Shown in pieces: positions 4,745 through 61,883 of a stretch of DNA of 64,000 nucleotides. The position numbers were made by a program, and so were the translations under genes. The stretch lies in the NCBI GenBank assembly GCA_030841085.1, contig JAVEDP010000038.1:1-64000 (forward strand), given 5' to 3'. This DNA is from Pyrinomonadaceae bacterium. GTDB lineage: Bacteria > Acidobacteriota > Blastocatellia > Pyrinomonadales > Pyrinomonadaceae. Position 1 is the first letter of the stretch. Every line of letters starts with the position of its first letter. The notes under the pieces were generated by a model. That model searched no databases and was not told the DNA's origin. It saw nothing but the letters and a program-made list of their open reading frames with translations.

Positions 4745-5127
4745 TGTCCGATAAGCTTTATAGCTTCTCCTAAGGTCACGACAAACTAAAGCAAGCTCTG
4801 ATTAAGTTGATCGGCAGTTTGATTAGGGTTAGCCCGCGGAGCGTGGCGATAGCGTAAAGCCTGGGGTGGAGCGGAGCGCAACCCCAGGTTGGCGACGATT
4901 ATGAAATTCAAGCGCGCGAAGCGTGCGATAGAGCAAACGCCGAAGGTCACGATGATGAACAGGCTGTCGCCCACTCCGCGGGCTGCAACCTGATATTCCA
5001 GCGATCCTGGGGTTCCGCTCGCAAAGCCTCGCTCCACCCCAGGCTTTAAGCTATCGCCGCGCTCCGCGGGCTCTGCGCAACTACCCATAAGAAACTTGAT
5101 CAGAGCTTCCTAAAGTTTATCGGACAT
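4745..5127. repeat. Nested long palindromic element (family A copy 1 with outer arms)
   Basis: Inner arms at 4831-4888 and 5007-5072 are long inverted repeats containing GCCTGGGGTGGAGCGGAGCG and its complement. Outer arms TGTCCGATAAGCTTTA (from about 4745) and TAAAGTTTATCGGACA (to about 5127), plus AGCTCTGATTAAGTT and its near-complement, enclose them. The element separates the divergent maf and DUF721 genes. Reading frames here are translated repeat and not genes. Similar elements occur at 17931-18165 and 36491-36709. Confidence 0.85.
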
Positions 5128-14004: not shown

Positions 14005-14040
14005 TGAGGAACCGAACCAGGGACATATGACAGCTTGTCG

Positions 14041-14201
14041 TGGGTCGGCGAATACAGAACCGGGAGCGGTAGCGACTGGGTCTGCGAAGCGTTGAGTTCA
14101 CCGTCATTGTAACGACGTTCTCGGCGATCCATGAAAACGAATTGTGTCATCACGAGTCAGACCCGGTCGCTACCGCTTCCGGTTCTGTATTCGTCGACCC
14201 A
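14041..14201. repeat. Inverted-repeat element D1
   Basis: Arms 14041-14084 and 14158-14201 are near-perfect reverse complements, about 44 bases each, containing CAGAACCGGGAGCGGTAGCG and CGCTACCGCTTCCGGTTCTG. Related elements are at 22861-22981 and, as a single arm, at 35686-35716. It lies between the permease and PIG-L genes. Confidence 0.85.
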
Positions 14202-14213
14202 CTGTGCGACTAT

Positions 14214-16760: not shown

Positions 16761-16793
16761 AGGTTGAGTGAAATTGATTGAGGGCAAGAAAGA

Positions 16794-16988
16794 TTTTCCA
16801 TTTGCCATTTTACATTTCTCATTTTCCATTTCAGAGAAAAGCAAGCACGCCGTTGCGGCTCTTAAGCAGATGGGAATCTGATGCCTGAATCTAATTGTCA
16901 AAAATAAAAGGCTCCCTGAAGGAGCCTGAAGTTTCGAAACGCGGCGATGAAAAATGAGAAATGGAAAATGGTAAATGGTAAATTTTCT
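16794..16988. repeat. 'TTTTCCATT' word palindrome around a terminator
   Basis: Left arm 16794-16836 consists of words like TTTTCCATTTGCCATTTTAC. Right arm 16948-16988 has the complement (AAAATGAGAAATGGAAAATG, then GTAAATGGTAAATTTT). The arms enclose about 110 bases that include the terminator hairpin at 16900-16927. No gene was seen. Confidence 0.7.
16900..16927 (-). terminator. Rho-independent terminator for the SRPBCC gene
   Basis: On the minus strand: AGGCTCC stem, TTCAG loop, GGAGCCT stem, then TTTATTTTT. A 7-bp GC-rich hairpin followed by a U-run, about 80 bases downstream of the stop of the minus-strand SRPBCC gene. Confidence 0.8.
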
Positions 16989-17904: not shown

Positions 17905-17930
17905 AGGGTGTCTGTGAAAAATCTGCAAGC

Positions 17931-18165
17931 AGCCCGCGAAGCGCGGCGCCAGCATAAAGCCTGGGGTGGAGCAAAGCGGAACCCCAGGATCGTTCAAGTA
18001 AAAAACAACGAGCCCGCGGAGTGGGCGGCAGCCGAATAGCAAAAATGAATTGCAGGGTTTGCGCTGTCGGACGCTTCGCGCACTTAGGATCTTCTAACTA
18101 TCGTCGTCCTGGGGTTCCGCTCCGCTCCACCCCAGGCTTTATGCTATCGCCGCGCTTCGCGGGCT
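17931..18165. repeat. Long palindromic element, family A copy 2
   Basis: Arms 17931-17988 and 18108-18165 are 58-base inverted repeats holding AGCATAAAGCCTGGGGTGGA and its complement. An extra partial arm (GAGCCCGCGGAGTGGGCGGC) sits inside at about 18009. It fills the gap between the convergent zinc-ribbon and glnE genes. There is no protein-coding content. Confidence 0.87.
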
Positions 18166-18197
18166 GAAGAAATGCCCGAATTGACTTGAGAAACGTT

Positions 18198-22753: not shown

Positions 22754-22860
22754 ACGTCGCGGGGAAGATGCGCGACGAGACGGTCGCACTAACCCGGGTG
22801 CGGCGCGCGAAAATTTTTACTCAAAATGAAATGCCGGTCTCACGAATGGGACCGGGCTTA

Positions 22861-22981
22861 TGCAGAACCGCGAGCGGTAGCGACCGGATGTCAGCACTCA
22901 ATCTCCCGAAGAATCTGAGTCGGAATCTCTTCACGAAAGGTTGAGTATTCACGTCCGGTCGCTACCGCTCGCGGTTCTGCA
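22861..22981. repeat. Inverted-repeat element D2
   Basis: Arms 22861-22888 (TGCAGAACCGCGAGCGGTAG then CGACCGGA) and 22954-22981 are exact reverse complements. The core matches D1 at 14041-14201. It fills the space between the convergent 21527 gene and glnA, and could serve both 3' ends. Confidence 0.87.
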
Positions 22982-22994
22982 TTCAGTTGAATGC

Positions 22995-31092: not shown

Positions 31093-31351
31093 CCGAGTCA
31101 GAGGTCAGAAGTCAGAGGTCAGAGGTCAGAGGTCAGAGGTCAGTCGTTAATGGTTAGTGGTCAGATGTTGAAATATCTTCCGACGAAAAGCCTGGCGTTC
31201 TCAGCTCTAATCCCTGATCTCTGACCTCCGACCTCTGACCGGCCTCTGGCCTCTGGCCTCCGACCTCCGACCTCTGATCTCTGATCTCCGACCTCTGATC
31301 TCCGACCTCTGACCTCTGATTTCTGACCTCCGGCCTCCGGCCTCTGACCTC
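31093..31351. repeat. 'GAGGTCAGA' word palindrome
   Basis: Left arm 31093-31143: tandem GAGGTCAGA words. Right arm 31211-31351: many CTGACCTCCGACCTCTGATC-type words in complementary sense. Together they can form a long imperfect hairpin. The right arm reaches the stop codon of the phosphatidyltransferase gene. No gene was seen within. Confidence 0.8.
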
Positions 31352-32021
31352 ACGGCAGACGCTCCAAGTGGTAAAGAGCATGTGTGTTTTTGATAGATGA
31401 GAAGACCAGCATCGTGGCCATGGCAATTATGCTGACCACGCCGCCGACATCGAACAGCAGAAAACGTCGCCCAAACAAATGCGTATGCGAACTGTGAAGC
31501 AGGTAAAGATTGCCGATGATTAAGACCAGGCGCATCTCAGTCGGTCCCAGCTTCCATTGCGATATTTTGAAAATGCCCAGGGCGTAAGCAGCGAGATACG
31601 AGTTGATTGCCAGCATCAGGAAAACGACCAGCAACGCTGCCGCCACGCGTTCGCTCATGAAACCCGAAAGCGCCAGGCCGAAAATGAAGAACAGCGCGCC
31701 GAAAGTGTCGATGATGTGGTCCACATAGAACCCATAACGCGGCCGTTGCCGATCACGGTAGCGCGCCAGCGTTCCATCCAGGCTGTCGCCAAACCAATTG
31801 AGAAAAATAAAAACGTTGACGAGGTGTAACATCGATGGCCTTTGTCCGCTGGCCGCGTAACAAACGCCGGCCATAAACATAGCTACCAATCCAAGCAGCG
31901 AAAGATGATCCGAGTTGACCCAGCGCGGCATGCGTCGCGCCAACCCGCGCAATGCTGCCCGTTCGAGTGGCGCGAGAATGCTTGTCTGTTCGCGCCGCGC
32001 GTCGTGAAAATTTTTAGTCAT
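31350..32021 (-). CDS. CDP-alcohol phosphatidyltransferase family protein
   Basis: Membrane enzyme of 223 residues from ATG 32021 (GGAG seven bases upstream; an extra upstream start at 32045 is not favoured). It has about six membrane segments. The catalytic pattern DG..AR..G...D...D is present (Asp82, Gly83, Ala86-Arg87, Gly97, Asp101, Asp105), with nine rather than the usual eight residues between AR and G. It transfers a phosphatidyl group from CDP-diacylglycerol to an alcohol or inositol phosphate. The acceptor is not determinable. Confidence 0.87.
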   Translation of the reverse strand: MTKNFHDARREQTSILAPLERAALRGLARRMPRWVNSDHLSLLGLVAMFMAGVCYAASGQRPSMLHLVNVFIFLNWFGDSLDGTLARYRDRQRPRYGFYVDHIIDTFGALFFIFGLALSGFMSERVAAALLVVFLMLAINSYLAAYALGIFKISQWKLGPTEMRLVLIIGNLYLLHSSHTHLFGRRFLLFDVGGVVSIIAMATMLVFSSIKNTHALYHLERLP

Positions 32022-32087
32022 TGAATTCTCCAACCTATCCGACAACTTGAAACTTCGATTTAGACAACTTAGTCATTCACCACCCAA

Positions 32088-35685: not shown

Positions 35686-35716
35686 GGGACCCGGTCGCTA
35701 CCGCTCCCGGTGCTGA
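35686..35716 (-). repeat. Single arm of family D
   Basis: Minus strand: GTCAGCACCGGGAGCGGTAG then CGACCGGGTCC. Matches the arms of D1 and D2. It overlaps the last codons of thiD. Confidence 0.75.
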
Positions 35717-36480
35717 CTTTGCTTGGCGTTGCGAAGTTCATTCAACACGAAATCTTTCGCTTGTCTGACGGAATCTTCCAAAGACAATCCTTTACCCAAT
35801 CCCGCTGCGATCGCTGCTGACAACATACAACCTGACCCGCGAATGCTAGCGCCGGGAATAAAAGCAGCGCGGAACACAGTCACCTTTCCGTCATCGTCGA
35901 GCACATCAATCGCTTCTTCTGGAAACGCGCCGGGCGCTGCTGGAAGGTGTCCGCCTTTGATCAAAACCGCGCGCGCGCCGAGCCCGCGAATAATCTTCGC
36001 GGCCTCGCGCATCTGGGCTTCTGAAGTTATGTGCAAGCCAATTAGCGCCTCGGCTTCGGGAATATTTGGTGTGACCGCGCGCGCCACGGGCAATAACTCG
36101 GCAACGAAAACATCGAGCGCGTCTGCTTCCATCAAACGCAGGCCCGAACTGGAAACCATAACTGGATCGACGACCGGCGCCGGCAACTCGCTCTCGCGAA
36201 AGATGCGCGCGACCTCTCGCACAACTTCGCGTGTCGGCAGCATTCCCGTCTTCGCACAACCAAACTGAAACTCTGCCCGCAATGACTCTAGCTGACCGCG
36301 AACCGTCGCGGCCGTTTGATGAGCTGCACCGGTCGCGCTTCTGTCGTTTTGGAAAGTGATTGAGGTGATCGCGGCAGACGCGCGGTAACCAAAGGACGCA
36401 AAAGTCCTGGCGTCCGCGAGCACGCCGGCGGCGCCCGACGGATCAAAGCCTGCGATGGTTAATGCATTTGGCAAAGGCAT
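35698..36480 (-). CDS. thiD: Hydroxymethylpyrimidine/phosphomethylpyrimidine kinase
   Basis: ThiD phosphorylates HMP and HMP-P in thiamine synthesis. Start 36480 gives MPLPNALTIAGFDPSGAAGV, the conserved family opening, and 260 residues. A longer frame to 36552 is translated repeat A3. Other motifs are KTGMLPTREVVREVA, VVDPVMVSSSG, and the C-terminal anion hole GASIRGSGCMLSAAIAAGLG. Its last residues run into a family D repeat arm. thiE lies upstream on the same strand, with repeat A3 in between. Confidence 0.92.
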   Translation of the reverse strand: MPLPNALTIAGFDPSGAAGVLADARTFASFGYRASAAITSITFQNDRSATGAAHQTAATVRGQLESLRAEFQFGCAKTGMLPTREVVREVARIFRESELPAPVVDPVMVSSSGLRLMEADALDVFVAELLPVARAVTPNIPEAEALIGLHITSEAQMREAAKIIRGLGARAVLIKGGHLPAAPGAFPEEAIDVLDDDGKVTVFRAAFIPGASIRGSGCMLSAAIAAGLGKGLSLEDSVRQAKDFVLNELRNAKQSQHRER

Positions 36481-36490
36481 GAAACCACTC

Positions 36491-36709
36491 AGCCTGCGGA
36501 GCAGGCGGTAGCATAAAGCCTGGGGTGAAGCGGAGCGGAACCCCAGGTCCATAGTTCAAAAGAAGCGAGCCCGCGGAGCTGGCGGCAGGCTTGCCGGGAT
36601 GTGAACGCTGTCGCCCGCGCCGCGGGCTCGGCCACTCTCAATTCATGCCTGTCCTGGGGTTCGCTGCGCTTCACCCCAGGCTTTATGCTACCGCCCGCTC
36701 CGCAGGCTA
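36491..36709. repeat. Long palindromic element, family A copy 3
   Basis: Arms 36491-36547 and 36654-36709 are inverted repeats with GCATAAAGCCTGGGGTGAAG and its complement. Internal GAGCCCGCGGAGCTGGCGGC and GCCCGCGCCGCGGGCTCGG add more stems. It is 219 bases long, placed between thiE and thiD. The right arm encodes the final residues and stop of thiE. Confidence 0.87.
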
Positions 36710-37672: not shown

Positions 37673-37680
37673 GGGGTGTT

Positions 37681-37916
37681 CGTAAATCGTTAATCGTAAA
37701 TCGTAAATCGTAAATCGTGAATAGATGTTCTTGGTCTTTGGTCTTTGGTCTTTGGTCTTTGGTCTTTGGTCTTTGGTCTTTGGTCTTTGGTCTTTGATCT
37801 TTGATCTTTGATCTTCGGTTTGTTTTGTGGTTTCTGTTTCCTGTTTCCTGTTTCCTGTTTCCTGTTTTCTTCGGGCTCGTCACCATTTACGATTTACGAT
37901 TCACGATTCACGATTT
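37681..37916. repeat. Nested word repeat: 'CGTAAAT', 'GGTCTTT' and 'CTGTTTC' tracts
   Basis: Outer left arm from 37681 is (TCGTAAA)n. Outer right arm 37884-37916 is its complement (ATTTACGATTTACGATTCAC). Between them lie about nine GGTCTTT units and four CTGTTTC units in direct tandem. The right arm encodes the last residues Arg-Lys-Ser and the stop of the TPR gene. The tract length may vary between strains. Confidence 0.85.
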
Positions 37917-40196
37917 ACGGTCTTTCTTCTTCTTCTGGCGCGCTTGTAAACTCTGCAGCCGGTCCGCGACATCGCGATAGCTGACATCGACGCCATAAAC
38001 TTCCGTGAACGCACTCACCGCGCGCGTCAAATCGCCCATCTGTTCATAAGCCGAACCCAGCTCGTACTGCAGCGCCTTGTACTCTTCGGCGCCGCGCCCG
38101 GGAACATCCAAACCCTTCTTGAACCACAGCACGGCTGCTTGCGGCAAACCCTTCTGCACAAAGCAATGGCCCAGCATGTTACAGCATTGCAGGAATCGCG
38201 GCGTGTTGTCACTGGGACCGGTCAAACCGGCAGCCGCCTGAAACTCTCTGATAGCCTCGTCAAGCAAGTCCATCTCTTTGTAGGCCGTCGCCATGTTGTA
38301 GTGAGTTTCAAAATCCTCGGCGACAGGGTTCTGTTCGCCTTCCGCTTCGACGCGAAACTCTTCAAATATCTCGGCCAGGCCGGAATCAATTCCACTGCCC
38401 GTCGGCGCCGCGTTCGCAGTAATTTGCGAAGCTCCATCGGCAATGCTGTGAACTGCTTCATCGGCGACTATGATCGTTTCGACTTCAGCTGCCTTAACCG
38501 GCGCGGCTACCGAATTACTTTCAAACTCAATCGTCGTTGTAGCCGATTTCGCTGCGTCCAGTTGGGCGCGGCGTGAAGCGAACTCAGGATCCGGACCGAA
38601 CTGCCGTTCCAATATTTCGAGTGTGTCGAGAGCAATGTCCGAGTAGCCTTGAGCGATGTAAAAGTCAACGCTTTCCAGCTCCTGCTTGATCATCGCGTCC
38701 TTCCGCGGCCCAGCTTCCGAGTCATCGTTCGGATTTACCTCGGTCTCGGTCGCCCCGGAATGTGGCAGCGGATAGTCCTGTGCAAAGGGATCGACAAAAG
38801 CCGGATCAGGCGCGAGCTGTTCCGAGTCCTCGCTTTCGTTTAGGTCCGCAAAGGAAATATTAGTCGAGTTGTTAGAAGCTACAGAATTCCATTCGAACTC
38901 CGCCGCGGGTTCGCTGAGGTTGTTATCAACCATCGTGGCGCTATCGTCGACAATCGCAAAACTTTCGAAGGTGGGAACGACGTCCGCCGCAAGCTCGTCG
39001 CTTTGATGCCGCTCCACCTCTTCGTCGAGCGCTCCACCAATAGTCTCCAACCGTTCGGCGTAGCGCGATTCGTCGGGAGCGAGACGGATCAATTGCGTCA
39101 ACGCATAGCGCTCGTCCTCGACCATGCCGGCCGCTTCTGCGGATTCCGCCAGGCGCTCGAGTACGGACCGAAGCTTTTCAGTATCGCGTTGCCACCAGTG
39201 AATGCGGGCCAACAAACGCAACGCGCCAACATGCTCCGGAGCACTTGCCAAAATTTCATCGACCAGCTCTAACAGATCGCTTTCTTCGCGACCGGCCAAC
39301 ATCCTTTCCAGGATTTCGCCGAGCACGCGCACCGCTTCGTCTTCCTGGCCCAGCTTTAAATAGACGCGCGACACCTCGATATAACGGCGATAGCCATCCG
39401 GGTCGTGCGCCAGCAACAAAGCAGTCGCGCGTTCAGCACCGGGCGCATCATCCGCGGCAACATAAGCGTCGGCCAGCATCGCAGCCAAATCCGGATCATC
39501 CGGCATTTCTGCAGCTGCTTTTTCCAGGATTTCCGCCGCATCTTCCGCCGTTCCCAGCGCGCTGGTAACTGAGAGCAAACCGCGCAGCAGCGTCTTGTCG
39601 TTGGATTTCAATTCCAGGGCCCGAATGTAGGCTGAATGCGATTTTTCCAGATCGCCGTTTTCAAGTAATCGCTTGGCCGCTTCACCGAAAGCTTTCGCAG
39701 CTTCGTTTTCCATCCCCTCTTTGAGATAACCTTCAGCGAGCTGAACCCGGACATTGGTGTTGTGCGGGTCGAGGTCGGCGATGCGGTGCAGCACGCCGAG
39801 GGTCTTGCGCGTTTCGCCCGCGCGCGTATAACCATCGGCGACGATAAGAAACTGCGCGCGCGCATCAACGATCAGGCCCTGGGCTGCATAGAGTTCGCCG
39901 AGTTTATTTGCCGTTTCGGGATCGCGAGGTTTGAGCTTCTCGATCTTCCGGTACATCGCGATGGCTTTCAGCCGGAATTCCTGTTCGCGATAATGTTCGG
40001 CAATCTGCGAGAAGCAGGAAATCGCTTCGTCTTTCTGGCCGGCACGCGCCAATAAATCGCCCAGCATGTTGACAGCAGTAAGATCCTGCGGATCATGCTT
40101 GATGATTTGGCGGTACTCTTTGATGGCGGCATTGATCTTTCCCTGGGAAAGAAATTTCTCTGCCGCTTTCAGAACCTTAGCTTTTTCGAAAGCCAT
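37908..40196 (-). CDS. Large cytoplasmic TPR protein
   Basis: The 762-residue protein has no signal peptide. TPR units run through the first 370 residues (KINAAIKEYRQIIKHDPQDL, ALLAHDPDGYRRYIEVSRVY) and return near the C-terminus (NMATAYKEMDLLDEAIREFQ). Between about 390 and 590 is an acidic, low-complexity region. The end is lysine-rich (RQKKKKDRKS), the last three residues coming from repeat DNA. Proteins of this build in Acidobacteria and Myxobacteria act as scaffolds, for example with motility or secretion systems; no specific partner is evident here. Confidence 0.78.
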   Translation of the reverse strand: MAFEKAKVLKAAEKFLSQGKINAAIKEYRQIIKHDPQDLTAVNMLGDLLARAGQKDEAISCFSQIAEHYREQEFRLKAIAMYRKIEKLKPRDPETANKLGELYAAQGLIVDARAQFLIVADGYTRAGETRKTLGVLHRIADLDPHNTNVRVQLAEGYLKEGMENEAAKAFGEAAKRLLENGDLEKSHSAYIRALELKSNDKTLLRGLLSVTSALGTAEDAAEILEKAAAEMPDDPDLAAMLADAYVAADDAPGAERATALLLAHDPDGYRRYIEVSRVYLKLGQEDEAVRVLGEILERMLAGREESDLLELVDEILASAPEHVGALRLLARIHWWQRDTEKLRSVLERLAESAEAAGMVEDERYALTQLIRLAPDESRYAERLETIGGALDEEVERHQSDELAADVVPTFESFAIVDDSATMVDNNLSEPAAEFEWNSVASNNSTNISFADLNESEDSEQLAPDPAFVDPFAQDYPLPHSGATETEVNPNDDSEAGPRKDAMIKQELESVDFYIAQGYSDIALDTLEILERQFGPDPEFASRRAQLDAAKSATTTIEFESNSVAAPVKAAEVETIIVADEAVHSIADGASQITANAAPTGSGIDSGLAEIFEEFRVEAEGEQNPVAEDFETHYNMATAYKEMDLLDEAIREFQAAAGLTGPSDNTPRFLQCCNMLGHCFVQKGLPQAAVLWFKKGLDVPGRGAEEYKALQYELGSAYEQMGDLTRAVSAFTEVYGVDVSYRDVADRLQSLQARQKKKKDRKS

Positions 40197-50255: not shown

Positions 50256-51706
50256 CGTTGGGCAGCGTGACCTTTGCGCCCGGCGAAACTTCAAAGACTT
50301 TTCGCATCTTGATCGTCAACGACAATTTTGTCGAAGGCGATGAGACCGTGTCGCTCGCACTCTCGAACCCAACTGGCGCGGGCGTAGGCCTTGGCAGTCC
50401 GAACATCGCCGAGCTGACGGTTTTGGACAACGACGTGGTGCCACCGTCAGCCAATCCGATTGACACCGCAAGTTTCTTTGTCCGGCAACACTATCTTGAT
50501 TTCCTCAATCGCGAGCCCGACGCGCCGGGATTAGCTTTCTGGACCAATGAAATTACTTCGTGCGGCGCTGATGCGTCTTGTATCGAGCGCAAGAGAATCA
50601 ATGTCAGCGCGGCCTTCTTTCTTTCAATTGAGTTTCAAAAAACGGGCTACCTGGCATACCTGACGCACCGCGTTGCTTTCGGGCCGAATGCCACGGGTGG
50701 CTCTCCAGTTCCAATCCTGTACGGGAACTTCGAGCGCGATACGCAGACGCTGCAAAGGGGCTACGTGTTCGGTGCGGCGGGAGCTGAGGCCCAGCTTGAG
50801 GCAAACAAGGTCGCGTACTACAACGATTTTGTGGCGCGTCCCGAGTTCGTCTCCAAATATCCGAGCACGCTGACCAACGAGCAATACGTGGATGCATTGC
50901 TCGCGAGTGCTAACCTGACGCCGTCCGAAGTAAGAGTCTTCACAGTCAACCTAACAAACTCGCAGGAGGTGCCGCCGACAGTGCCGACGACAACCACCGG
51001 AGCTGCCAGGCCAGCTTCGTCAGGCACCGCCCGGTTCCAATTTAACGCGGCCCAAACAGCGATGACGTTTACTGCGACGGTAAACAATATCGACTTCACG
51101 GGATCGCAAACGGCCGATACTAACGACAACCTGGGCAACGCCCACATTCATGCGGGACCGTCGGTTGCGCCGGGCGTTAATGGTCCGGTGGTGTGGGGCT
51201 TCTTCGGAAGTCCATTCAACGACAACAATCCTAACGATCAGGTCGTTACTCCGCTTAGCGGCGGCGTCGGCGGCACGGTCAGCGGCAAATGGGACGCGCC
51301 CGAAGGGAACGGCACAACCCTGGCGGCTCAGTTAACTAACTTGCGCGAGGGCAGGGCCTACATTAATTTCCACACCGTTCAATTTACTGGTGGTGAAATT
51401 CGTGGCAACTTCCCCGCGGCTGATGCTTTCCGCAACGCACTGGTTGCGGGATTGAATGGCTCGACCGAAACACGAGCGACCGTGCTTCGCAAAATTGCCG
51501 AGGCGGACGAACTGCAAACACGCGAGTTCAACGCCGCATTCGTAGCGATGGAGTACTTCGGCTACCTGCGTCGCGACCCGGACACTGCCGGATATAATTT
51601 CTGGCTTAACAAACTGAACGCATTCAATGGCAACTTTATCAACGCCGAGATGGTCAAGGCGTTCATTTTGTCGTCCGAGTATCGGCAACGCTTCGGACCA
51701 AGCTAA
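50139..51706 (+). CDS. Calx-beta, split DUF4214 and CHRD domains, 3' part of the frameshifted gene
   Basis: Reading from 50139: HIDITVTRNGDASGTASVNY and SVTFAPGETSKTFRILIVND form a Calx-beta domain. The first DUF4214 half follows (FFVRQHYLDFLNREPDAPGL). Then comes a CHRD domain at about 50936-51410 (NLTNSQEVPP, AHIHAGPSVAPGVNGPVVWG, GGEIRGNFP), and a second DUF4214 half with AMEYFGYLRRDPDTAGYNFW. A start at 50258 is open but lies inside the Calx-beta domain, so this is not an independent gene. It is likely a cell-surface module chain. Confidence 0.8.
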
Positions 51707-51707
51707 C

Positions 51708-51898
51708 GGCTGCAGCAGCAGACGGCAGGAGGCGGAAGGCAGTAGGCAGACGGCAGGAGCAGTCGGCAGCAAATAGAGCTGCGGTGCTCCGGCCTTCTGC
51801 CTAGTCCCTTCTGCCGTCTCCCTCCTGCCTCCTGCTCCTGCCTCCTGCTCCTGCCTCCTGCTCCTGCCGTCTGCTTCTAGCTTCCGTTTCCTGACTTC
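51708..51898. repeat. 'GCAGGAG/CTCCTGC' word palindrome
   Basis: Left arm from 51708: CAGACGGCAGGAGGCGGAAG and similar. Right arm 51795-51890: CTCCTGCCTCCTGCTCCTGC in many copies. Together they can fold into a long hairpin. It fills the gap between the TIGR03118 gene stop and the Wzt-like ATPase start. Confidence 0.85.
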
Positions 51899-51913: not shown

Positions 51914-53245
51914 ATGACCGCTGCCCTGCGCGTTGAAAAAGTCTCCAAGCAATATCGCATCTACACGCGACCCGGCGATCGCCTGAAGGAATCGCTTACG
52001 CGCGGTCGACTGCGCCGGCATAAAGAATTCTGGGCCCTGCGCGACGTGGACTTCGAAATCGAGGCCGGCACCACCGTGGGCATTGTCGGACCAAACGGTT
52101 GCGGCAAGTCGACCTTGTTGCAGATCATTTCGGGCACGTTGGCGCCGACGCACGGCGACGTTTGGCACGACGGGCGAATCGCAGCACTGCTCGAACTTGG
52201 CGCCGGCTTCGATCCGGAATTTACCGGCGTGGAAAACGTTTATATGAACGCCAGTCTGCTGGGATTGACCAGGCGCGAAACCGATGCGCTTTTTCCGGCC
52301 ATCGAGCGCTTCGCCGAAATCGGTCCGTTTCTTTATCAGCCGGTGAAAACTTATTCGAGCGGAATGTACGTGCGCCTGGCCTTTGCGATCGCGGCAAGCG
52401 TCGAACCCGACATCCTGATCATCGACGAGGCGCTCGCGGTCGGCGACGCAGTTTTTCAACATCGTTGCCTTCGTCGCATAAATGAATTGCACGAGCGCGG
52501 CGCCACGGTGCTGTTCGTTTCGCACGACGCCGCGGCTGTGCGCGCGCTGTGCTCGCGCGCGATCATGCTTCGGGCCGGCAGCATCATCGCCGACGGCAAG
52601 CCCGCCGACGTGCTCAACCTCTATCAGAAAATTATTATGGAGCGCGAACAGGCCTACGAAGCGGCGGCCGGCGCCCCGCGCGACGAACGATCTGAAGCCG
52701 ACGAAACTCTGGCGCCCGTAAGCTGTGCCTACCGCCACGGCGATGGCAGCGCCGAGATCGTCGGCGCGGAACTTTCTGACGTTACGAAAGCGCGCGTCGA
52801 CATTGTCGAGAGTGGCGAACCGCTAACCTTGCGCCTGGCTGTTCGTTTTCATCACGACGTTCCCGATCCGGTAATTGGATTTTTGATTCGCAACTCCCAC
52901 GGCATCCACGCCTACGGCACAAACACGAAAGAACAACAACTCGAGTTTGGCACGGTGCGCGGCGGCGAACTGGTCGAGATAAGTTTCGCGTTTCAATGTT
53001 GGCTGGGTGTGGACCAATATACAATTTCACTGGCCGTGCATAGCCGCGAAGGCCTCGCTTACGACTGGCTCGACGCCGCGCTTTTCGTTAGAGTCACGAG
53101 CATGACGCTGACCGAAGGCGTCGCTAATTTGAATGCCGGCGTAACCGTTCACCAGCGCGCCGCACCATCAGACAACTCGCAACCAGAGTCGCAGCGCGAA
53201 GGTGCGACGATCGCCGGCAATCACGAAACTGTGAGTTATGGCTGA
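51914..53245 (+). CDS. Polysaccharide ABC transporter ATP-binding protein (Wzt-like)
   Basis: The 443-residue protein has Walker A VGPNGCGKSTLL at residues 58-69, signature YSSGMYVRLAF, and Walker B PDILIIDEALAVGD, with the switch histidine in LFVSHDAAA. The C-terminal 150 residues form a Wzt_C-like carbohydrate-binding module (PVIGFLIRNSHGIHAYGTNT). It would drive export by the Wzm-like permease at 42129. Its last eight bases overlap the coiled-coil gene, so the two are co-translated. Confidence 0.88.
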   Translation: MTAALRVEKVSKQYRIYTRPGDRLKESLTRGRLRRHKEFWALRDVDFEIEAGTTVGIVGPNGCGKSTLLQIISGTLAPTHGDVWHDGRIAALLELGAGFDPEFTGVENVYMNASLLGLTRRETDALFPAIERFAEIGPFLYQPVKTYSSGMYVRLAFAIAASVEPDILIIDEALAVGDAVFQHRCLRRINELHERGATVLFVSHDAAAVRALCSRAIMLRAGSIIADGKPADVLNLYQKIIMEREQAYEAAAGAPRDERSEADETLAPVSCAYRHGDGSAEIVGAELSDVTKARVDIVESGEPLTLRLAVRFHHDVPDPVIGFLIRNSHGIHAYGTNTKEQQLEFGTVRGGELVEISFAFQCWLGVDQYTISLAVHSREGLAYDWLDAALFVRVTSMTLTEGVANLNAGVTVHQRAAPSDNSQPESQREGATIAGNHETVSYG

Positions 53246-54074
53246 AACAGAAGTAGCAAGCATTCTGCGTGAAATTCGCGAGCGAGTAATTACGCAGCAA
53301 CGGTCGGCCCAGGACGTAACAACCGCCGCTAATATTGCGGCCAACGGAGACAGTCGCGTTGCGGAATCGCCGATCGCCGCATCGGGCAACCGCGAATCAA
53401 CTGCCAAAAATCTGGCATTGATTAACTCCTACCTGACAACAACCGCGCGGGCCTGGGACCGTCTGCCGCCGGTCGTTAGCAATCGCAGCGGTTTCGTCGC
53501 AACACTGGAGCTTTGGTGTAAACGACAAATGAAACGCGCGACGCGCTGGTACGCCTGGGAGCAGGTGAATTTCAATGCCGCGGTCCATCACGCATTGCGC
53601 GACCTGCTGCCCGTGCTGGCGGCTTATGAATACGAGTTGGAAAAACTGCGCGCGGAAACTACTGCGGCGCATGACGCGCAACGGATTGAGTTGGAGCAAA
53701 ACCAAAACGCGCTGGCTGGATTGCGCGCGGAACTCGCTGCGTTGGGCGCGGAACTCGCTGCGTTGAGCGCGGAACTCGCTGCTTTGCGCGCGGAACAGGC
53801 CCACCGGCGCGCAGAAACTGTAGCAACGTTGCAAGCCCAAAGTGATTTAACGAGAGCGCAAAACGCTGGAGTGGAGGCACAACTGCGGGACTTGATTGAT
53901 GAATTACGCGCACGTGATGAAATCCTGCGCGCGGAACAACGCGTCTGCTTCAAGCAACTCTCGCTGCAAACTGGCGAGGCCGCCACGCTCGAGGATCGCG
54001 CCCGGCGCAAGAACGAAACGCTGTTAGGGGAACTTCAGCGCCGCATCGATGAAATTGAGAAGACGGAAAAGTGA
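53238..54074 (+). CDS. Coiled-coil hypothetical protein with tandem heptads
   Basis: Unrecognised 278-residue protein, no signal peptide. A helical N-terminal half (SYLTTTARAWDRLPPVVSNR) leads into a long coiled coil from about residue 130. At residues about 163-187 the 7-residue unit (A/R)AELAAL is repeated three to four times, with a 21-base DNA repeat (GCGCGGAACTCGCTG...). It begins eight bases inside the Wzt gene. Coiled coils next to Wzt can set glycan chain length (as WbdD does); that is a possible, untested role. Confidence 0.7.
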   Translation: MAETEVASILREIRERVITQQRSAQDVTTAANIAANGDSRVAESPIAASGNRESTAKNLALINSYLTTTARAWDRLPPVVSNRSGFVATLELWCKRQMKRATRWYAWEQVNFNAAVHHALRDLLPVLAAYEYELEKLRAETTAAHDAQRIELEQNQNALAGLRAELAALGAELAALSAELAALRAEQAHRRAETVATLQAQSDLTRAQNAGVEAQLRDLIDELRARDEILRAEQRVCFKQLSLQTGEAATLEDRARRKNETLLGELQRRIDEIEKTEK

Positions 54075-54077
54075 AGT

Positions 54078-54243
54078 GTGATGGGTAATGAGTGATGAGT
54101 CATGAGTAATGAGGGATGAGTGATGAGTAGGCGCTAACAAGTTCAGAGTACAACCTTCAGGTTGCTCTTGCGCTGTTAAGAAGCAAGCTAAAGCTTGGAC
54201 TCTGAACTTCTGACTCACAACTCATCACTCATCACTCATCACT
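54078..54243. repeat. 'ATGAGTGATGAG' word palindrome enclosing family G copy 2
   Basis: Left arm 54078-54128 has GGTAATGAGTGATGAGTCAT. Right arm 54211-54243 has ACTCATCACTCATCACTCAT. Between them, 54141-54207 is family G copy 2 (GTTCAGAGTACAACCTTCAG ... TTGGACTCTGAAC). One repeat is nested in another. It lies just after the coiled-coil gene stop. Confidence 0.85.
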
Positions 54244-55619: not shown

Positions 55620-55770
55620 CTGTCAGTGGTCAGTTGTCAGTTGTTCGTGCTTTGAACTTTGTACTTGGTTCTTCGTCTTCTGAAAGCCCGATAAATTAGG
55701 CAATTAACTAAGCGCAAAGTTCAAAGTACTAGCCACTAACAACTGACCACTGACCACTGACCACTGACCA
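55620..55770. repeat. 'GTCAGTGGTCAG' word palindrome with nested inner arms
   Basis: Outer arms 55620-55643 (CTGTCAGTGGTCAGTTGTCA) and 55740-55770 (CAACTGACCACTGACCACTG). Inner arms GCTTTGAACTTTGTACTTGG (55649) and GCAAAGTTCAAAGTACT (55713) are also inverted. It starts three bases after the methyltransferase stop and ends eight bases before the glycosyltransferase ATG. Confidence 0.85.
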
Positions 55771-56879: not shown

Positions 56880-58364
56880 ATGAGACGCCCGCAACTCAGC
56901 CGCCTCGAGGTGGTCCTACTGGCAGTCAGTCTGCTCGCCTGCATCGTTTACTTTGCCGAGGTGTCGCACAACTCGCCCACCTTTTTCGTCGACGAAGCAT
57001 CGATCGCCTACAACGCACACACCATTTCTCAAAGCGGCGTCGATGAACACGGCGAAAGATTTCCGCTCTACTTTCGCGCCTTCGGCGAATACAAGAATCC
57101 CGTCTTCATCTATGCGCTGGCGGCGCTGTATCGCTTTACGGGACCCAGCGTGTTTGCCGCACGCTTGCTGAGCGCGTTGCTGGGAATGGCGGCCGCGTTG
57201 TTGCTTGGACTGCTGGCTATACGCATCACAAAGCAACTCGGCGCGGGCCTGCTCGTCTTTTTGAGTGTCTTGCTTACACCGTGGACATTTGAAATTAGCC
57301 GCCTCGTCTTCGAAGTCGCCATCTTTCCCGCGCTGCTCGCTGGTTTCCTGTTGCTGCTCTATGAAGCTTCGCGCCGCATGCAATGGTCCTGGCGCATCGC
57401 TGCGGGACTCGGCGCACTGCTGGGCCTGATGACCTACACCTATTCGATTGGACGCTTGCTCGCGCCGCTGTTCGCGCTGGGGCTCGCGTTCTTTTTCACG
57501 CGCAACCGTCGCCGGGGAATAGTCCTCACCTGGATTGTTTTCGCTGTCATGCTGCTGCCGCTTGCGACGTTTAGCCTGCGGCACCCCGGCGCGCTCAGCG
57601 AACGATACAAGTTTGTTACTTACGTTAAGCCGGGAGATACAAATACGCGGATCGTGCTGCGGTTTGTACAAAACTATGCTGGCAACTTTGGTCCCGGGAA
57701 TTGGTTCCTCAAGGGCGATCCGGAACCACGTCATCACCTGCAATGGCACGGGAGCCTGCTTCTCGGCATGGTGCTGCTGGCGGCAATTGGATTTGTCGTT
57801 GTAATCCGCGGGCACTGGCGAGAAGCGTGGTGGCGATTCATTCTTTACGGCCTGGCTGTCGCTCCCATTCCCGCGTCACTTACGCTCGATCATTTCCACA
57901 CGCTGCGCTTGATTGCGCTGCCAATTTTTCTTTTTGTGCTGATGATGACGGCGATCCAGTTTCTTTCGGCGGAAGCGAGGCCACGACCACGCGCCAGACG
58001 CGCGCTACTCGCGACGCTGGCAGTCTTCTTGTTGGTCCAGGGATCCATTTTTCAATGGAAGTTTTATGCGGCCCCGACGCGCGTGGATGCGTTTGACAGT
58101 TATTATCCTGAACTGCTCAACGCGGCGCTGGCCCAGCCGGAGCGACCCGTTTACTTACTCGATAAAACTCCGGCGGCCTACATGTACGCGTATTGGTATG
58201 CGACGCTGCGCGGTCTGGATTTGCATAATTTTCAACGCGCCAGTCAAACGACGCCGCCGCCGGCCGGTGCGGTAGTCATCAGCCACGAATTGCCGTGCAC
58301 GAGTTGTGAAATGATTTTGGAGCGCGGACAGTTTCGTGTTTATAAAGTAAACAGCAAACAGTAA
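56880..58364 (+). CDS. ArnT/PMT-like membrane glycosyltransferase (GT-C)
   Basis: The 494-residue protein has about 11-12 membrane segments. A large first periplasmic loop has FFVDEASIAYNAHTISQSGV, with the Asp-Glu pair typical of GT-C enzymes using polyprenyl-phosphate sugars, then FPLYFRAFGEYKNPVFIYAL. It probably transfers a lipid-phosphate-linked sugar in the periplasm. The final residues Asn-Ser-Lys-Gln and stop are encoded by the left arm of a palindrome shared with the convergent gene. Confidence 0.85.
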   Translation: MRRPQLSRLEVVLLAVSLLACIVYFAEVSHNSPTFFVDEASIAYNAHTISQSGVDEHGERFPLYFRAFGEYKNPVFIYALAALYRFTGPSVFAARLLSALLGMAAALLLGLLAIRITKQLGAGLLVFLSVLLTPWTFEISRLVFEVAIFPALLAGFLLLLYEASRRMQWSWRIAAGLGALLGLMTYTYSIGRLLAPLFALGLAFFFTRNRRRGIVLTWIVFAVMLLPLATFSLRHPGALSERYKFVTYVKPGDTNTRIVLRFVQNYAGNFGPGNWFLKGDPEPRHHLQWHGSLLLGMVLLAAIGFVVVIRGHWREAWWRFILYGLAVAPIPASLTLDHFHTLRLIALPIFLFVLMMTAIQFLSAEARPRPRARRALLATLAVFLLVQGSIFQWKFYAAPTRVDAFDSYYPELLNAALAQPERPVYLLDKTPAAYMYAYWYATLRGLDLHNFQRASQTTPPPAGAVVISHELPCTSCEMILERGQFRVYKVNSKQ

Positions 58365-58429
58365 ACAGCAAACAGCCGGAACTCGCGTGCACTGCTTTGC
58401 TGTTTGCTGTCTGCTGTTTACTGTTTGCT
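58346..58429. repeat. 'AAACAGCAAACAG' palindrome shared by two convergent gene ends
   Basis: Left arm 58346-58376 (GTAAACAGCAAACAGTAAAC) and right arm 58395-58429 (GCTTTGCTGTTTGCTGTCTG, then CTGTTTACTGTTTGC). Each arm, read on its own strand, has AGC-AAA-CAG-TAA, giving Ser-Lys-Gln-stop for the genes ending at 58364 and 58418. Confidence 0.9.
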
Positions 58430-59203
58430 CTCTTCCGGTAGTTCCCGAAACGATGAGCGCAGACTGCAAAAGAGGTTGAAGCGAATCACCAGCCAGACCG
58501 CAGTCAGACCATCGATCATCGTAACTTTTTTGCCTTCGTCATAAGTGCGCCCGTAGTAGCTGATCGGCACTTCGTAGATCGGCACTTTCAACTTGGCTAT
58601 CTTGGCCACCACCTCAACCTCAAAGCCAAAGCCGCTCGAGACAATCGTCATGTTGCGAATGATGTCGCCGCGAAACGCTTTGTAACCGGTTTCGACATCG
58701 GTCATGTTCAGGTTGGTCAGCGAATTGGAAAGAAACGTCAGGAACTTGTTGGCGACGTAGTGATAGAAATACAGAACCCGCGTGGCCCGGCGCACGAGAA
58801 AGCGGGAACCGAAGACAGCGTGTGCATGCCCTTCGAGTATCGGACGAATCACGCCGTAAATATCCGTCGGGTCATATTCGAGATCCGCATCCTGAACGAT
58901 AACAATCGCTCCAGTGGTCAGCGCGAATCCGGTTTTAAGCGCTGCGGTCTTGCCGGCGTTACGCGGCTGCCGCACTACACGCACCTGGCTATGCGTTGCC
59001 GCAAGCTCGGCCGCGACCTCGCCTGTGCGGTCGGTTGAGCAGTCGTCGACGATGATGATTTCGAGCAGGCAGGGAACGTCCAACAATTTGCGCACCACCT
59101 CGGCCAAAGTCGCCTGCTCGTTGTAAACCGGCACGACTACGGACAGACAAGCCGGGTACTGCTCGCTGTCCTGCGACTCATGATTGTTTTGGGCGTGATT
59201 CAT
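58418..59203 (-). CDS. Glycosyltransferase family 2 (dolichyl-phosphate-mannose synthase-like)
   Basis: From ATG 59203 the protein is 261 residues; an extended frame to 59362 overlaps the upstream gene and is not used. GT-A motifs: SVVVPVYNEQATLAEVVRKL, IIIVDDCSTDRTGE, VIVQDADLEYDPTD, and GYKAFRGDIIRNMTIVSSGF with GFEVEVVAKI. No C-terminal membrane helices. It probably makes a polyprenyl-phosphate sugar, a donor for GT-C enzymes like the one at 56880. It starts four bases after the stop of the upstream membrane protein. Confidence 0.88.
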   Translation of the reverse strand: MNHAQNNHESQDSEQYPACLSVVVPVYNEQATLAEVVRKLLDVPCLLEIIIVDDCSTDRTGEVAAELAATHSQVRVVRQPRNAGKTAALKTGFALTTGAIVIVQDADLEYDPTDIYGVIRPILEGHAHAVFGSRFLVRRATRVLYFYHYVANKFLTFLSNSLTNLNMTDVETGYKAFRGDIIRNMTIVSSGFGFEVEVVAKIAKLKVPIYEVPISYYGRTYDEGKKVTMIDGLTAVWLVIRFNLFCSLRSSFRELPEESKQ

Positions 59204-59207
59204 TCCG

Positions 59208-61883
59208 CTACTTCTTCTCGATCCCTTCATATTCGCCCGAGGCTCGGAAGGCTCGCGACACGCGGCCAATTTCTCCAGATCTTTCAATCTCCCGGACCCA
59301 GAAATTGAAGCCGTCGAGATTCTTATCCGGCGGATCATCAGGATTGCGCCGCAGGTAACCAAAATAGTGAAGCAGAACCAGCGAACGGTTCTCTTCTTTC
59401 TTAACCAGTTCGGGGTTGTCCACGATCGCGAGCAAAGCCTGCGCGCGTGTCAGCAACCCGCCGTTAAGTTTCTCAATTAAGGCGGCACGCTCCGCCGGCG
59501 CGAGGCTGATGCCGGCATGTTCGCTCAACGTATCGACATAACGCTCGTTCGTCATCGTTTGATAGAGACTGCGAAACTTCGCTCGCTCGACCCAGGCAGC
59601 GGCAAACTCGTTGATGTTAGCTTCAAGTCTCCCTTCGTCGGCGAAGTTGGCCGTCACTCCCCTACCGATGATCTTCACGTCCGGCATGAATTCCGCGTAA
59701 CGCGGCAGCGCACCAAAGGACACCAGGTAAAGACGGTAAAGTTTCTGACTCCGCTCGCGATAATCGCCGAGCACGTTGACTGGATTCTCGTTGAGTAACG
59801 TTGTCCAGTCTTTGAGCTCCAGGGCAAAGGGCATCGCCGCTTCCGTCTTCGCCTGCGGCTCGGTTTTCACGACCGCATAAAGATCGTCGCGCCCATCGAA
59901 ACGATTGACGTACCGCAACCGCCCGTTTACGACTGCCCGCGCCAGAAAAGTTTCATAGTCGACGCGGCGCTCGGGCGCAATCAAGTGGTTCTCGACTACG
60001 ACATAGGACGCGGGAATTTTTTCGAGGAGATCCATGAACTGCGGCGTTATAGTCCCGCTGCGTGTCATAGTCTCAATGTCATATTCGTACGGCGTAATGA
60101 AGCCGGACGTGCCGACGATGAGTGGCTTGGCGTGATCCGCTGCACGCAGGATATGGTGGTGGTTAAAGTCGGCGCCGGCCGGAAGCACAACTATCCCCGC
60201 GCTCATCGGAGTTTTTTTAAGCCGCAGCGTTACCGCGTCAGGATAAACATCACCACGCATGAACTTCAATGGCGCGGCGTTAAGTTCGAAAAGAAGCAAA
60301 ACGCATAACACTAAGTAGACTGCCGCGGGTCGAACAAGCGGGACCTTGAGAACGATCCTTTCTGAGAGCCGCTTCGCTCCAAGGCCGGCAAGCAGCGCGA
60401 TACCGAGATATGCGATCATGGCGCCACGCGTTACGACCCGCATACCTTTGAAGAGTGGAACAACATCATAGAGAATCCGGTAGACAAAGAAGTTCCAACC
60501 TAGCGAGTAGCAGAAGCCGACGATGACCCAGACCAATCCCAGCCAGAAGGCCTCCGTGCGGCGCGGTGAACGAAGAGTTTCGATTAGACTTGCGTTATCC
60601 CCACGCCTGAGAAAGCTTGGATATGCGAGGCAGAGTCGCGTCAGGATGGCGACGAGCAGAAGGGACAGAGCACGCTCCGATGTGACGTGATTAAAGAGAC
60701 CGCGGAAGACATCAAGTCCCTCAAACCCGATAGCCATAATGGCGACGGCAAGCGAGAGAACAATGAGCGTGTCGAGCCAAAAGAGTAATCGCTTGCTCGC
60801 CGATGCTTTGTCCACACGCTCACCGGCTTGAGCCGGCTCGATCATAACCAGCGCCGCTAACGAGAGCAGCAAGGGCAGAAGTCCGGGAAACAATTTAAAC
60901 TTCCAACCCTCGTTAATATTGCTGCCGAAACCGCTCCAGAACTTGTTGCGCACCTCGACCGAAAGCCAGTGAATCGGCCAAGCAGACTCAGACTGCACGT
61001 CCTCGATGCGGCGCGTGAAGCCATACATCCTTGAAACCCAATAGTAAGGCAACATAAACGGCAACAACGCCACTGCGGCCACACCGAGCGCGACCGCGCC
61101 ACGTCGCCAGAAAGCGTGATCGCGCCACAGTCCATAACGCGTCAACAAAATAGCGGCCGACAGTGCAAACGGCAGCAGTGATAGGGTAAGCCAGGAAATC
61201 GTTGTCAGTCCCGAAAGAAAGAATGCGCAACCGAGCCATAACGCGCGCTTCCAACTGCGTTTGCGCGCAAATAATACGAGTGCTTCAAAAAGCAACGGCA
61301 CCCAGGGAGAGAAGAGATAGGCCACCTGCGACATCATGCCAAAGCGGTACGGAATAAACGCGAAGATGATCCCGGAAACCCAGGCCACGCCATAGGAACC
61401 GGTCAGGGTACGCGCGAGCCTGAATGCAGCGTAACCACATAGAGCGAAGCCGCAAAAAATTGCCACCGCATGGACCGTCAGCGGTCGCGCTCCCAACGCG
61501 AATAGTGGAAAGAAAAGCATCGCAATGCCGTAGCTGTGCTCGCTGAAGGCTAGAGTGTAACGGTATGGATAGAAGACGTTCGCGTGGAAAAGATTGAGCG
61601 GGTCAGTAAAGGTGGCGTGATAATCCCACCAGAGAATCCAGGAAATGAGATAGGGGTCACCCGGATCTACGACTGCGTCGCGCAGCCGTGTCACATAAGG
61701 CCACGTCAGTACGGCCGTCATCGCGAAGAAAGTAAGGACGATTAGTAACTCGCGGATCGGTGGGTGCCGGACAACGGCGCGCCAGACAGAACGGAGTTTA
61801 CTGGAATACGATATGACCCTGTTGGCTTTCAGTCTTCGGGAGTTAGGCTCGGAAATGATAAGGTGCACCTCTTCTTCGCGCAT
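59208..61883 (-). CDS. Polytopic membrane protein (GT-C-like) with C-terminal DUF4214
   Basis: The 891-residue protein has about 12 membrane segments in the first 500 residues (FFAMTAVLTWPYVTRLRDAV, DPGDPYLISWILWWDYHATF) and resembles GT-C glycosyltransferases with a loop acidic pair. A soluble region of about 200 residues follows. The C-terminus has DUF4214-like parts (ERYVDTLSEHAGISLAPAER and LLHYFGYLRRNPDDPPDKNL, DGFNFWVREIER). This fusion is uncommon. The GT2 gene downstream, four bases away, is likely co-transcribed and could supply its lipid-linked sugar. Confidence 0.8.
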   Translation of the reverse strand: MREEEVHLIISEPNSRRLKANRVISYSSKLRSVWRAVVRHPPIRELLIVLTFFAMTAVLTWPYVTRLRDAVVDPGDPYLISWILWWDYHATFTDPLNLFHANVFYPYRYTLAFSEHSYGIAMLFFPLFALGARPLTVHAVAIFCGFALCGYAAFRLARTLTGSYGVAWVSGIIFAFIPYRFGMMSQVAYLFSPWVPLLFEALVLFARKRSWKRALWLGCAFFLSGLTTISWLTLSLLPFALSAAILLTRYGLWRDHAFWRRGAVALGVAAVALLPFMLPYYWVSRMYGFTRRIEDVQSESAWPIHWLSVEVRNKFWSGFGSNINEGWKFKLFPGLLPLLLSLAALVMIEPAQAGERVDKASASKRLLFWLDTLIVLSLAVAIMAIGFEGLDVFRGLFNHVTSERALSLLLVAILTRLCLAYPSFLRRGDNASLIETLRSPRRTEAFWLGLVWVIVGFCYSLGWNFFVYRILYDVVPLFKGMRVVTRGAMIAYLGIALLAGLGAKRLSERIVLKVPLVRPAAVYLVLCVLLLFELNAAPLKFMRGDVYPDAVTLRLKKTPMSAGIVVLPAGADFNHHHILRAADHAKPLIVGTSGFITPYEYDIETMTRSGTITPQFMDLLEKIPASYVVVENHLIAPERRVDYETFLARAVVNGRLRYVNRFDGRDDLYAVVKTEPQAKTEAAMPFALELKDWTTLLNENPVNVLGDYRERSQKLYRLYLVSFGALPRYAEFMPDVKIIGRGVTANFADEGRLEANINEFAAAWVERAKFRSLYQTMTNERYVDTLSEHAGISLAPAERAALIEKLNGGLLTRAQALLAIVDNPELVKKEENRSLVLLHYFGYLRRNPDDPPDKNLDGFNFWVREIERSGEIGRVSRAFRASGEYEGIEKK

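Follow-up and report, generated by a model that had tools for sequence, protein, structure and literature searches.

The inverted repeat between the convergent genes that end at positions 58364 and 58418 is best read, at a probability of roughly 0.55, as belonging to a class of hairpins that are built from heptanucleotide repeats and seated at gene boundaries in this lineage of Blastocatellia; in this class the stem would be kept, the two arms would stay alike, and altered protein tails would arise as a by-product. The element lies in a window of 64,000 nt (contig JAVEDP010000038.1 of assembly GCA_030841085.1, Pyrinomonadaceae bacterium, positions 1 to 64,000 of the forward strand) and consists of two inverted arrays of the 7-bp unit AAACAGY flanking a 19-nt loop.

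The steps proposed for this class are (i) in many elements, the pairing of two inverted arrays that share a 7-bp word and enclose a mostly unique loop, (ii) growth and turnover of the arrays, probably by 7-nt slippage, (iii) maintenance of likeness between arms, which may proceed through copying or conversion templated by the hairpin or through exchange of the entire element for another, (iv) selection for a stem at the gene end, which could act as a 3′-end hairpin or a ribosome-termination-type structure, (v) closure of the focal convergent pair, so tight that each reading frame enters its arm and stops at an in-frame CAG TAA, and (vi) alteration of protein tails, which would be incidental and confined to places where an array crosses a stop. 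If the stem is what selection keeps, almost any heptad would therefore do.

The focal stem and its two stop codons

The features of the focal locus are as follows.

56880-58364, + strand: ORF of 494 aa, PMT_2 / PMT glycosyltransferase-like (both slightly under the Pfam cut-offs), ending ...FRVYKVNSKQ*
58347-58376, + strand: left arm, tandem AAACAGY heptads, containing the final codons and TAA of the + gene
58353-58364, + strand: AGC AAA CAG TAA, the heptad-encoded SKQ* of the + gene (stop at 58362-58364)
58377-58395, no strand: focal loop, 19 nt
58396-58429, - strand: right arm, AAACAGY heptads inverted, containing the final codons and TAA of the - gene
58429-58418, - strand: AGC AAA CAG TAA, the heptad-encoded SKQ* of the - gene (stop at 58420-58418)
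58418-59362, - strand: ORF with a Glycos_transf_2 domain (PF00535, E 5e-35), true start uncertain, ending ...FRELPEESKQ*

The original prediction held that both genes finish with the codons AGC AAA CAG TAA, and the sequence and ORFs agree. It further ascribed the two ends to a single AAACAGC palindrome; each arm does encode one end, but the structure really comprises two arrays of 7-bp units, inverted relative to each other and separated by the loop. Tandem Repeats Finder detects the arrays of both arms, and the two TAA stops, as read from the sequence, are out of register by one heptad. A second copy of the loop was not found in 864 kb of the home genome, a search in which a 19-nt query has low power. 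The bare 7-mer AAACAGC is in weak excess in the window (20 against 12.7 expected; 5 of 100 shuffles reach 20).

As RNA, positions 58340-58436 fold into a long stem on either strand (−42.1 and −45.7 kcal/mol), with a z of −6.6 for each strand against 200 shuffles. Both stops are inside this stem and not ahead of it. A simple consensus scan of 58200-58600 returned no intrinsic terminator (GC-rich stem plus U tract) and no promoter-like consensus, and an intrinsic terminator at the focal site is rejected on the basis of this empty scan. By eye, the loop of another element, L069, contains a classical-looking terminator-type hairpin.

The shared end follows from the repeat itself. On the array strand of AAACAGY repeats, the sole stop is the TAA in CAG TAA, which forms where a unit ends in T, and a unit ending in C ahead of it yields the codons AGC AAA CAG TAA. 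The identical SKQ on both proteins is thus dictated by the word itself together with the symmetry between arms, and a special event is unnecessary. SKQ* terminates four ORFs at three loci of the home genome, namely the focal pair, a 303-aa ORF ending KKQESKQ* (L074), and a 273-aa ORF ending EAKESKQ* (L075/L211); blastp detects no similarity among the four proteins (best E 0.17). The genome contains 20 AGYRAACAGTAAACAG sites, several of them sharing one element, and three of the 20 have an ORF of 100 or more codons in frame: those of the two window genes and that of L211. Other frames can pass an AAACAGY array, as in the ORFs of L058 and L065, which continue through NSKQ and stop downstream. 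A second heptad, CGTRAAT, gives the end R[KE]S* to three ORFs (window 37908, C12 97429, and C12 359734), among which blastp likewise finds no similarity (best E 9.7).

The heptad class in the genome

Arrays of period 7 number 18 in the window and 45 in 400 kb of contig C12, whereas periods 5, 6, and 8-12 at the same threshold give 0 each in the window and at most one each in C12. With a laxer threshold, C12 holds 57 period-7 arrays against up to six of any other period. Periods 7 and 14 are both enriched, and the tandem units are 7 nt long, degenerate, and present in several copies. At a score of at least 13, the arrays per 100 kb amount to 28.1 in the window, 11.2 in C12, and 15.8 in contig C15 of the home genome; elsewhere, with one contig stretch per genome, they amount to 15.8 in the same-genus G014, 3.3 in the same-family G017, and 6.2 and 0 in the same-class G036 and G045, respectively. 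The AAACAGY dimer occurs 19 times in the home genome against once for the reversed control, and its pattern is present in 6 of 149 sampled Acidobacteriota genomes, the home genome included. In G156, from a different acidobacterial family, the reversed control pattern matches 33 and 23 times, which suggests another abundant heptad word there.

A sample of 864 kb (753 called genes) contains 82 heptad elements, about one per 10 kb, which are mainly intergenic (72 in gaps, 10 not). Same-word inverted arms occur at about half or more of these elements, and the words vary between loci, the 151 arrays of the sample using 46 different words. Two inverted arrays of one word are detected in 35 of the 82. 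A looser search near the elements raises the inverted partners to 51, leaving 31 with none detected, and gives 8 direct, 1 reversed, and 3 complement-only partners. Among 52 same-locus array pairs, of which those from one cluster are not independent, 26 are inverted at a unit distance of at most 1 (null 4.3%) and 7 are direct. The order of unit variants is not common to the two arms (43 pairs, four pairs without unit variation being omitted; mean permutation p 0.44, with one pair at or below 0.05). Because this order differs between arms, there is no sign that whole arms were recently copied in inverted form, and simple inverted duplication of one arm as the sole story is rejected.

The elements lie close to stop codons. 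Leaving aside the 10 outside gaps, the median distance from element edge to stop is 11 nt, compared with 33 nt for random placement in the gap; 36 of 73 stop-side edges fall within 10 nt and 14 of 73 overlap an ORF. Genes were called with home-made callers that leave start positions uncertain. Subject to that uncertainty, start-side edges have a median distance of 24 nt, and 28 of 71 lie within 10 nt of a start codon, which counts against a pure 3′-end role. Eight elements are situated between convergent genes, and the focal element alone is entered by both frames.

Sister elements in the window, none with an assigned strand, are given below.

1618-1687: AGTTTCG arms
16793-16983: ATTTTCC arms between convergent genes, with a near-identical word in the congener G011
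31097-31351: GTCAGAG arms at the stop of ORF 31350-32045 (-)
37680-37919: outer arms of TCGTRAA enclosing arrays of TTGGTCT and TTCCTGT, supplying the DRKS* end of ORF 37908-40196 (-)
54071-54243: GTGATGA / ACTCATC arms flanking a dispersed palindromic core
55622-55770: GTCAGTK arms

Other repeats share the window. Arrays of heptads and 13-bp units, GCAGAAG / CTCCTGC, occupy 51718-51875 between ORFs 50258-51706 and 51914-53245; none of the fetched G011 contigs matches the left flank. ORF 53238-54074 contains a 21-bp tandem repeat, in frame and of 3.6 copies (53721-53796). A MITE-like palindromic family of about 220 bp (AGCATAAAGCCTGGGGTG...) is found at 36491-36708, 17930-18166, and 4831-5072 and is matched several dozen times in G011. 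A second family of palindromes (CAGAACCGGGAGCGGTAGCGAC), at 14040-14202 and 22860-22982, supplies by eye the ...RER* ends of a GT2 gene in G014 and of window ORF 35698-36552.

Orthologous boundaries and competing explanations

The comparison with G011 covers gaps of at least 50 bp with both flanks on one fetched G011 contig in the same orientation. Across 103 such gaps, heptads are present in 24 of the home genome, 17 of G011, and 16 of both (P 5e-12); the C15 stretches compared were chosen for their home-genome heptads, and the tests condition on the home-genome set. Without the nine gaps whose words are the same or differ by one letter, 94 gaps remain, with heptads in 15, 8, and 7, respectively (P 4.6e-6). 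Further removal of C15 71366, which by eye resembles one ATTTNCC family in both genomes, leaves 93 gaps with 14, 7, and 6 (P 2.5e-5). For gaps of 60-350 bp containing a 3′ end, the corresponding values are 68 gaps with 11, 6, and 6 (P 4e-6). Eight of the 24 home-genome heptad gaps have a G011 counterpart in which no heptad array reaches the threshold applied, and one G011 heptad gap is without heptads in the home genome.

The seven different-word gaps are the focal one and C15 4601, 12538, 19253, 71366, 131975, and 316398. The focal gap carries AAACAGC in the home genome and GAGTGCT plus GATGAGT in G011. In the G011 gap orthologous to C15 4601-4704, two ATTGCCG-type arrays enclose more than 400 nt of other sequence.

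Two window boundaries were read in further genomes at threshold 9. Heptad arrays occur at 54074/54253 in all six readable genomes, the home genome included (G007 is unreadable): GTGATGA in the home genome and G011, CTGACTT in G014, CGTRAAT in G005, ACTGACA in G012, and GTCAGTT in G006. At 55617/55778, program-found arrays occur in four of six genomes read (G005 is cut off), with GTCAGTT in the home genome, GTCAGAG in G011 (weak) and G014, and ATTTTTG in G006; G012 has an ATTTTCC-like array by eye only, and G007 has no heptad array at this threshold. Two arms are listed for the home genome, G011, and G005 at the first boundary and for the home genome and G006 at the second.

The element at C15 76344-76552 illustrates how the two sides of a stem change. 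It aligns with its G011 counterpart at 76% over 271 nt including flanks, and a stricter setting aligns roughly half of the sequence outside the arrays, with the best match in the right part of the loop. The word is GAGTRCT, and its sixth base is C in all nine home-genome units (four left, five right) and A in all eight array units of G011 (four per arm); the pattern matches a ninth time in the G011 loop, and the locus is tallied as a same-word gap. Judged from this alignment, both arms changed jointly and part of the loop was retained.

These comparisons prompt a fuller reading, which is tentative and stands somewhat short of an even chance: gene boundaries may be lasting hairpin slots in which structure is inherited and sequence is not, with arms co-rewritten by hairpin-guided copying or conversion, unrelated heptads in relatives, and C-termini as collateral. 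Replacement of one word class by another, known from one intron stem (Nostoc trnL), becomes countable at many boundaries with paired species, and it becomes possible to test how a repeat stem comes to change on both sides at once.

Alternatively, the arrays could be function-free slippage debris tolerated only between genes, with palindromes promoting slippage and template switching at fixed hotspots. This account is unlikely, although several observations agree with it: the unit order is scrambled between arms, some arrays run into ORFs, the focal site lacks a terminator consensus, and the non-array sequence of heptad gaps aligns very poorly (median aligned fraction outside arrays of 0.28 where both genomes have heptads and 0.00 where only the home genome does, versus 0.78 in heptad-free gaps). 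It is weakened by the recurrence of other-word heptads at the same gaps, which holds even for the 60-350 bp gaps containing a 3′ end; a site-bound mutational hotspot would explain this recurrence too.

At the G011 counterparts of elements 31097-31351 and 1618-1687, no heptad array is found, and inspection by eye shows a different palindrome. Also by eye, a third family of palindromes (GGGAAGG.GG.TTGCCCCCGCTC) lies in G011 at the junctions orthologous to window 1618, 31075, and 42953, where the home genome carries heptad arrays.

Insertion of a mobile cassette between the two genes, that is, a MITE- or REP-like palindrome with heptad arms, is improbable. Of the 35 loops between same-word inverted arrays, 24 are found once in 864 kb, six are too short to find, and five repeat, three of which themselves contain heptads; a conserved mobile loop or shared REP-MITE body is consequently rejected for most judgeable loci. 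Different words at one gap in congeners also exceed chance, and at C15 76344-76552 the change of both arms left some of the loop in place. A cassette would account for the excess of AAACAGY dimers over the reversed control, for the other palindromes visible by eye in G011 at corresponding boundaries, and for the core AGTTCAGAGT... common to window 54071 and C15 130550, with 19 places each in the 864-kb sample.

A regulator that binds DNA or RNA, with the heptads as its repeated sites, has been proposed for the Beggiatoaceae TAACTGA repeats (PMC4679880) and the Geobacter heptanucleotide elements (PMC2700814). Such a role is very improbable here, as 46 words in 151 arrays and inverted arms at many loci are ill-suited to one sequence-specific protein.

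Protein tails and published relatives

The original prediction asked for an alignment of both proteins with their orthologues, on the expectation that the natural ends had been replaced. For the + gene, the five closest orthologues of 16 rows were compared (52-88% identity; G002 is a fragment), the remaining rows being at about 50% identity or less, some fused to further sequence. Four of the five lack an array across the stop and end in QK*: ...VYRQK* in G011, ...VYVQK* in G014, ...SYIQK* in G001, and ...VYVQK* in G002. In the focal gap of G011, a different heptad array begins 2 nt past the VYRQK* stop. The G006 orthologue ends ...VYVQNGHEVSTVAR*, its frame entered by another palindrome. For the - gene, where 13 of 30 loci were compared (those with at least 66% identity), 8 residues follow the S[FY]x motif, versus 15-28 in the 13 best-hit orthologues. 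This tail differs among all orthologues read, and that of G011 ends TNDE* within a GTGATGA-type array. On these alignments the SKQ ends are lineage-specific; SKQ ends in array-free orthologues, which had been named as contrary evidence, are absent from the orthologues read. For the - gene, with its variable tails, replacement of a natural end amounts to no more than a shorter tail.

The broader expectation that the repeats rewrite protein tails holds when an array begins before the stop and is not supported as a general rule. The survey comprises 163 genes whose orthologue in the fetched G011 contigs is at least 75% identical, aligned with free ends and with ORF 53238-54074 left out. Where the array begins before the stop, tails differ by at least two residues in one of the pair in five of five genes and the stop is displaced in four; two of these five are the focal pair, and some tail difference is expected by construction. 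Where the array is at or past the stop, the tail differs in 3 of 15 genes, which resembles the 32 of 143 genes without an array. The gene at boundary 55617 is scored in the at-or-past group, the stop-replacing array of G011 there having fallen below threshold. An earlier, smaller count gave 4 of 17 versus 11 of 49 changed tails, with an alignment that scored LERLP/LERLPEQP as unchanged. General tail rewriting by heptads is therefore not supported: tails are rewritten only where an array crosses the stop, and the class overall shows no raised tail change.

A reading of the shared SKQ as coincidence, or as a functional signal at the C-terminus, as identical ends in two adjacent glycosyltransferase-type genes might hint, can be dismissed almost entirely, for the array dictates the end, SKQ is absent from the orthologues read, and it also closes two further ORFs at two further AAACAGY arrays. 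The hairpin class also shows a route by which unrelated proteins gain an identical short C-terminus from intergenic repeats, and caution is warranted in such genomes, where C-terminal differences can be repeat-encoded.

By analogy, the single focal observation is a variant of known things, because heptad stems, stop-overlapping heptamers, and C-terminus-replacing repeats are all in print. Locus-specific heptad hairpins with slots and word switches at gene boundaries were not found described among the matches listed for open-access PMC, as searched mostly through titles and the starts of abstracts.

The nearest precedent is the P6b stem of the Nostoc trnL (UAA) group I intron, which is built from mutually pairing 7-nt words, and in which the classes TDNGATT and NNTGAGT repeatedly replace each other at one site; the paper states that the origin of the heptad classes is not known (PMC4476775). 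Like P6b, the focal element and the 51 of 82 elements with an inverted partner have the same word inverted on two sides of a stem. Unlike P6b, which is one intron locus, the elements described here number about one per 10 kb, lie at gene boundaries, use many words, and form some ORF ends; the focal one is located not in a trnL group I intron but between convergent glycosyltransferase-type genes. The two Nostoc word classes exceed letter-shuffles among the 151 arrays (13 against a mean of 2.2 and maximum of 7, and 8 against a mean of 0.9 and maximum of 5), the two arms of one element being counted separately. Cyanobacterial STRR sequences have a period of 7 with tandem units, are mostly intergenic, and in some cases lie over stop codons.

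The GGGNATC heptamers of Xanthomonas and Nostoc, one G-rich word family studied as a G-quadruplex, are also of period 7, tandem, mainly intergenic, and partly overlapping with stop codons, and differ from the elements here, which have many words and often inverted arms (PMC4692102). The TAACTGA repeats of marine Beggiatoaceae share the period of 7 and consist of a single word repeated directly (indirectly in one case), for the most part shortly ahead of start codons (PMC4679880). Heptamers overlapping stop codons are in print for both groups (PMC4679880, PMC4692102). GGGNATC and TAACTGA are each matched by 0 of the 151 arrays, and the focal word AAACAGY matches none of NNTGAGT, TDNGATT, TAACTGA, and GGGNATC. 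In Geobacter metallireducens, four tandem GGGACCG-type heptads occur at 49 places, and a second class of five tandem heptads, MTYCTGA, is drawn as paired or looped sites; these elements share the tandem heptads and differ in being predicted regulatory or binding elements with fixed words (PMC2700814).

Three further groups resemble the elements in position or effect. Enterobacterial RU elements fused to gene 3′ ends remove the normal stop and supply a new C-terminus; they are MITE-like, 103-168 bp long, and without heptads in the excerpted passages, in contrast to the heptad arrays here (PMC2759123). REPs are hairpins situated for the most part after genes, in the spaces that separate convergent or unidirectional ORFs, and thus resemble the elements as gene-end hairpins, but they form 20-40 bp sequence families (PMC3733652). 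Ribosome termination structures, also gene-end hairpins, lie directly past stop codons and are defined by folding energy, not by repeats (PMC7518266). The focal element has the stable fold, yet holds both stops within its stem, and the arrays of the class start at a median of 11 nt from stops.
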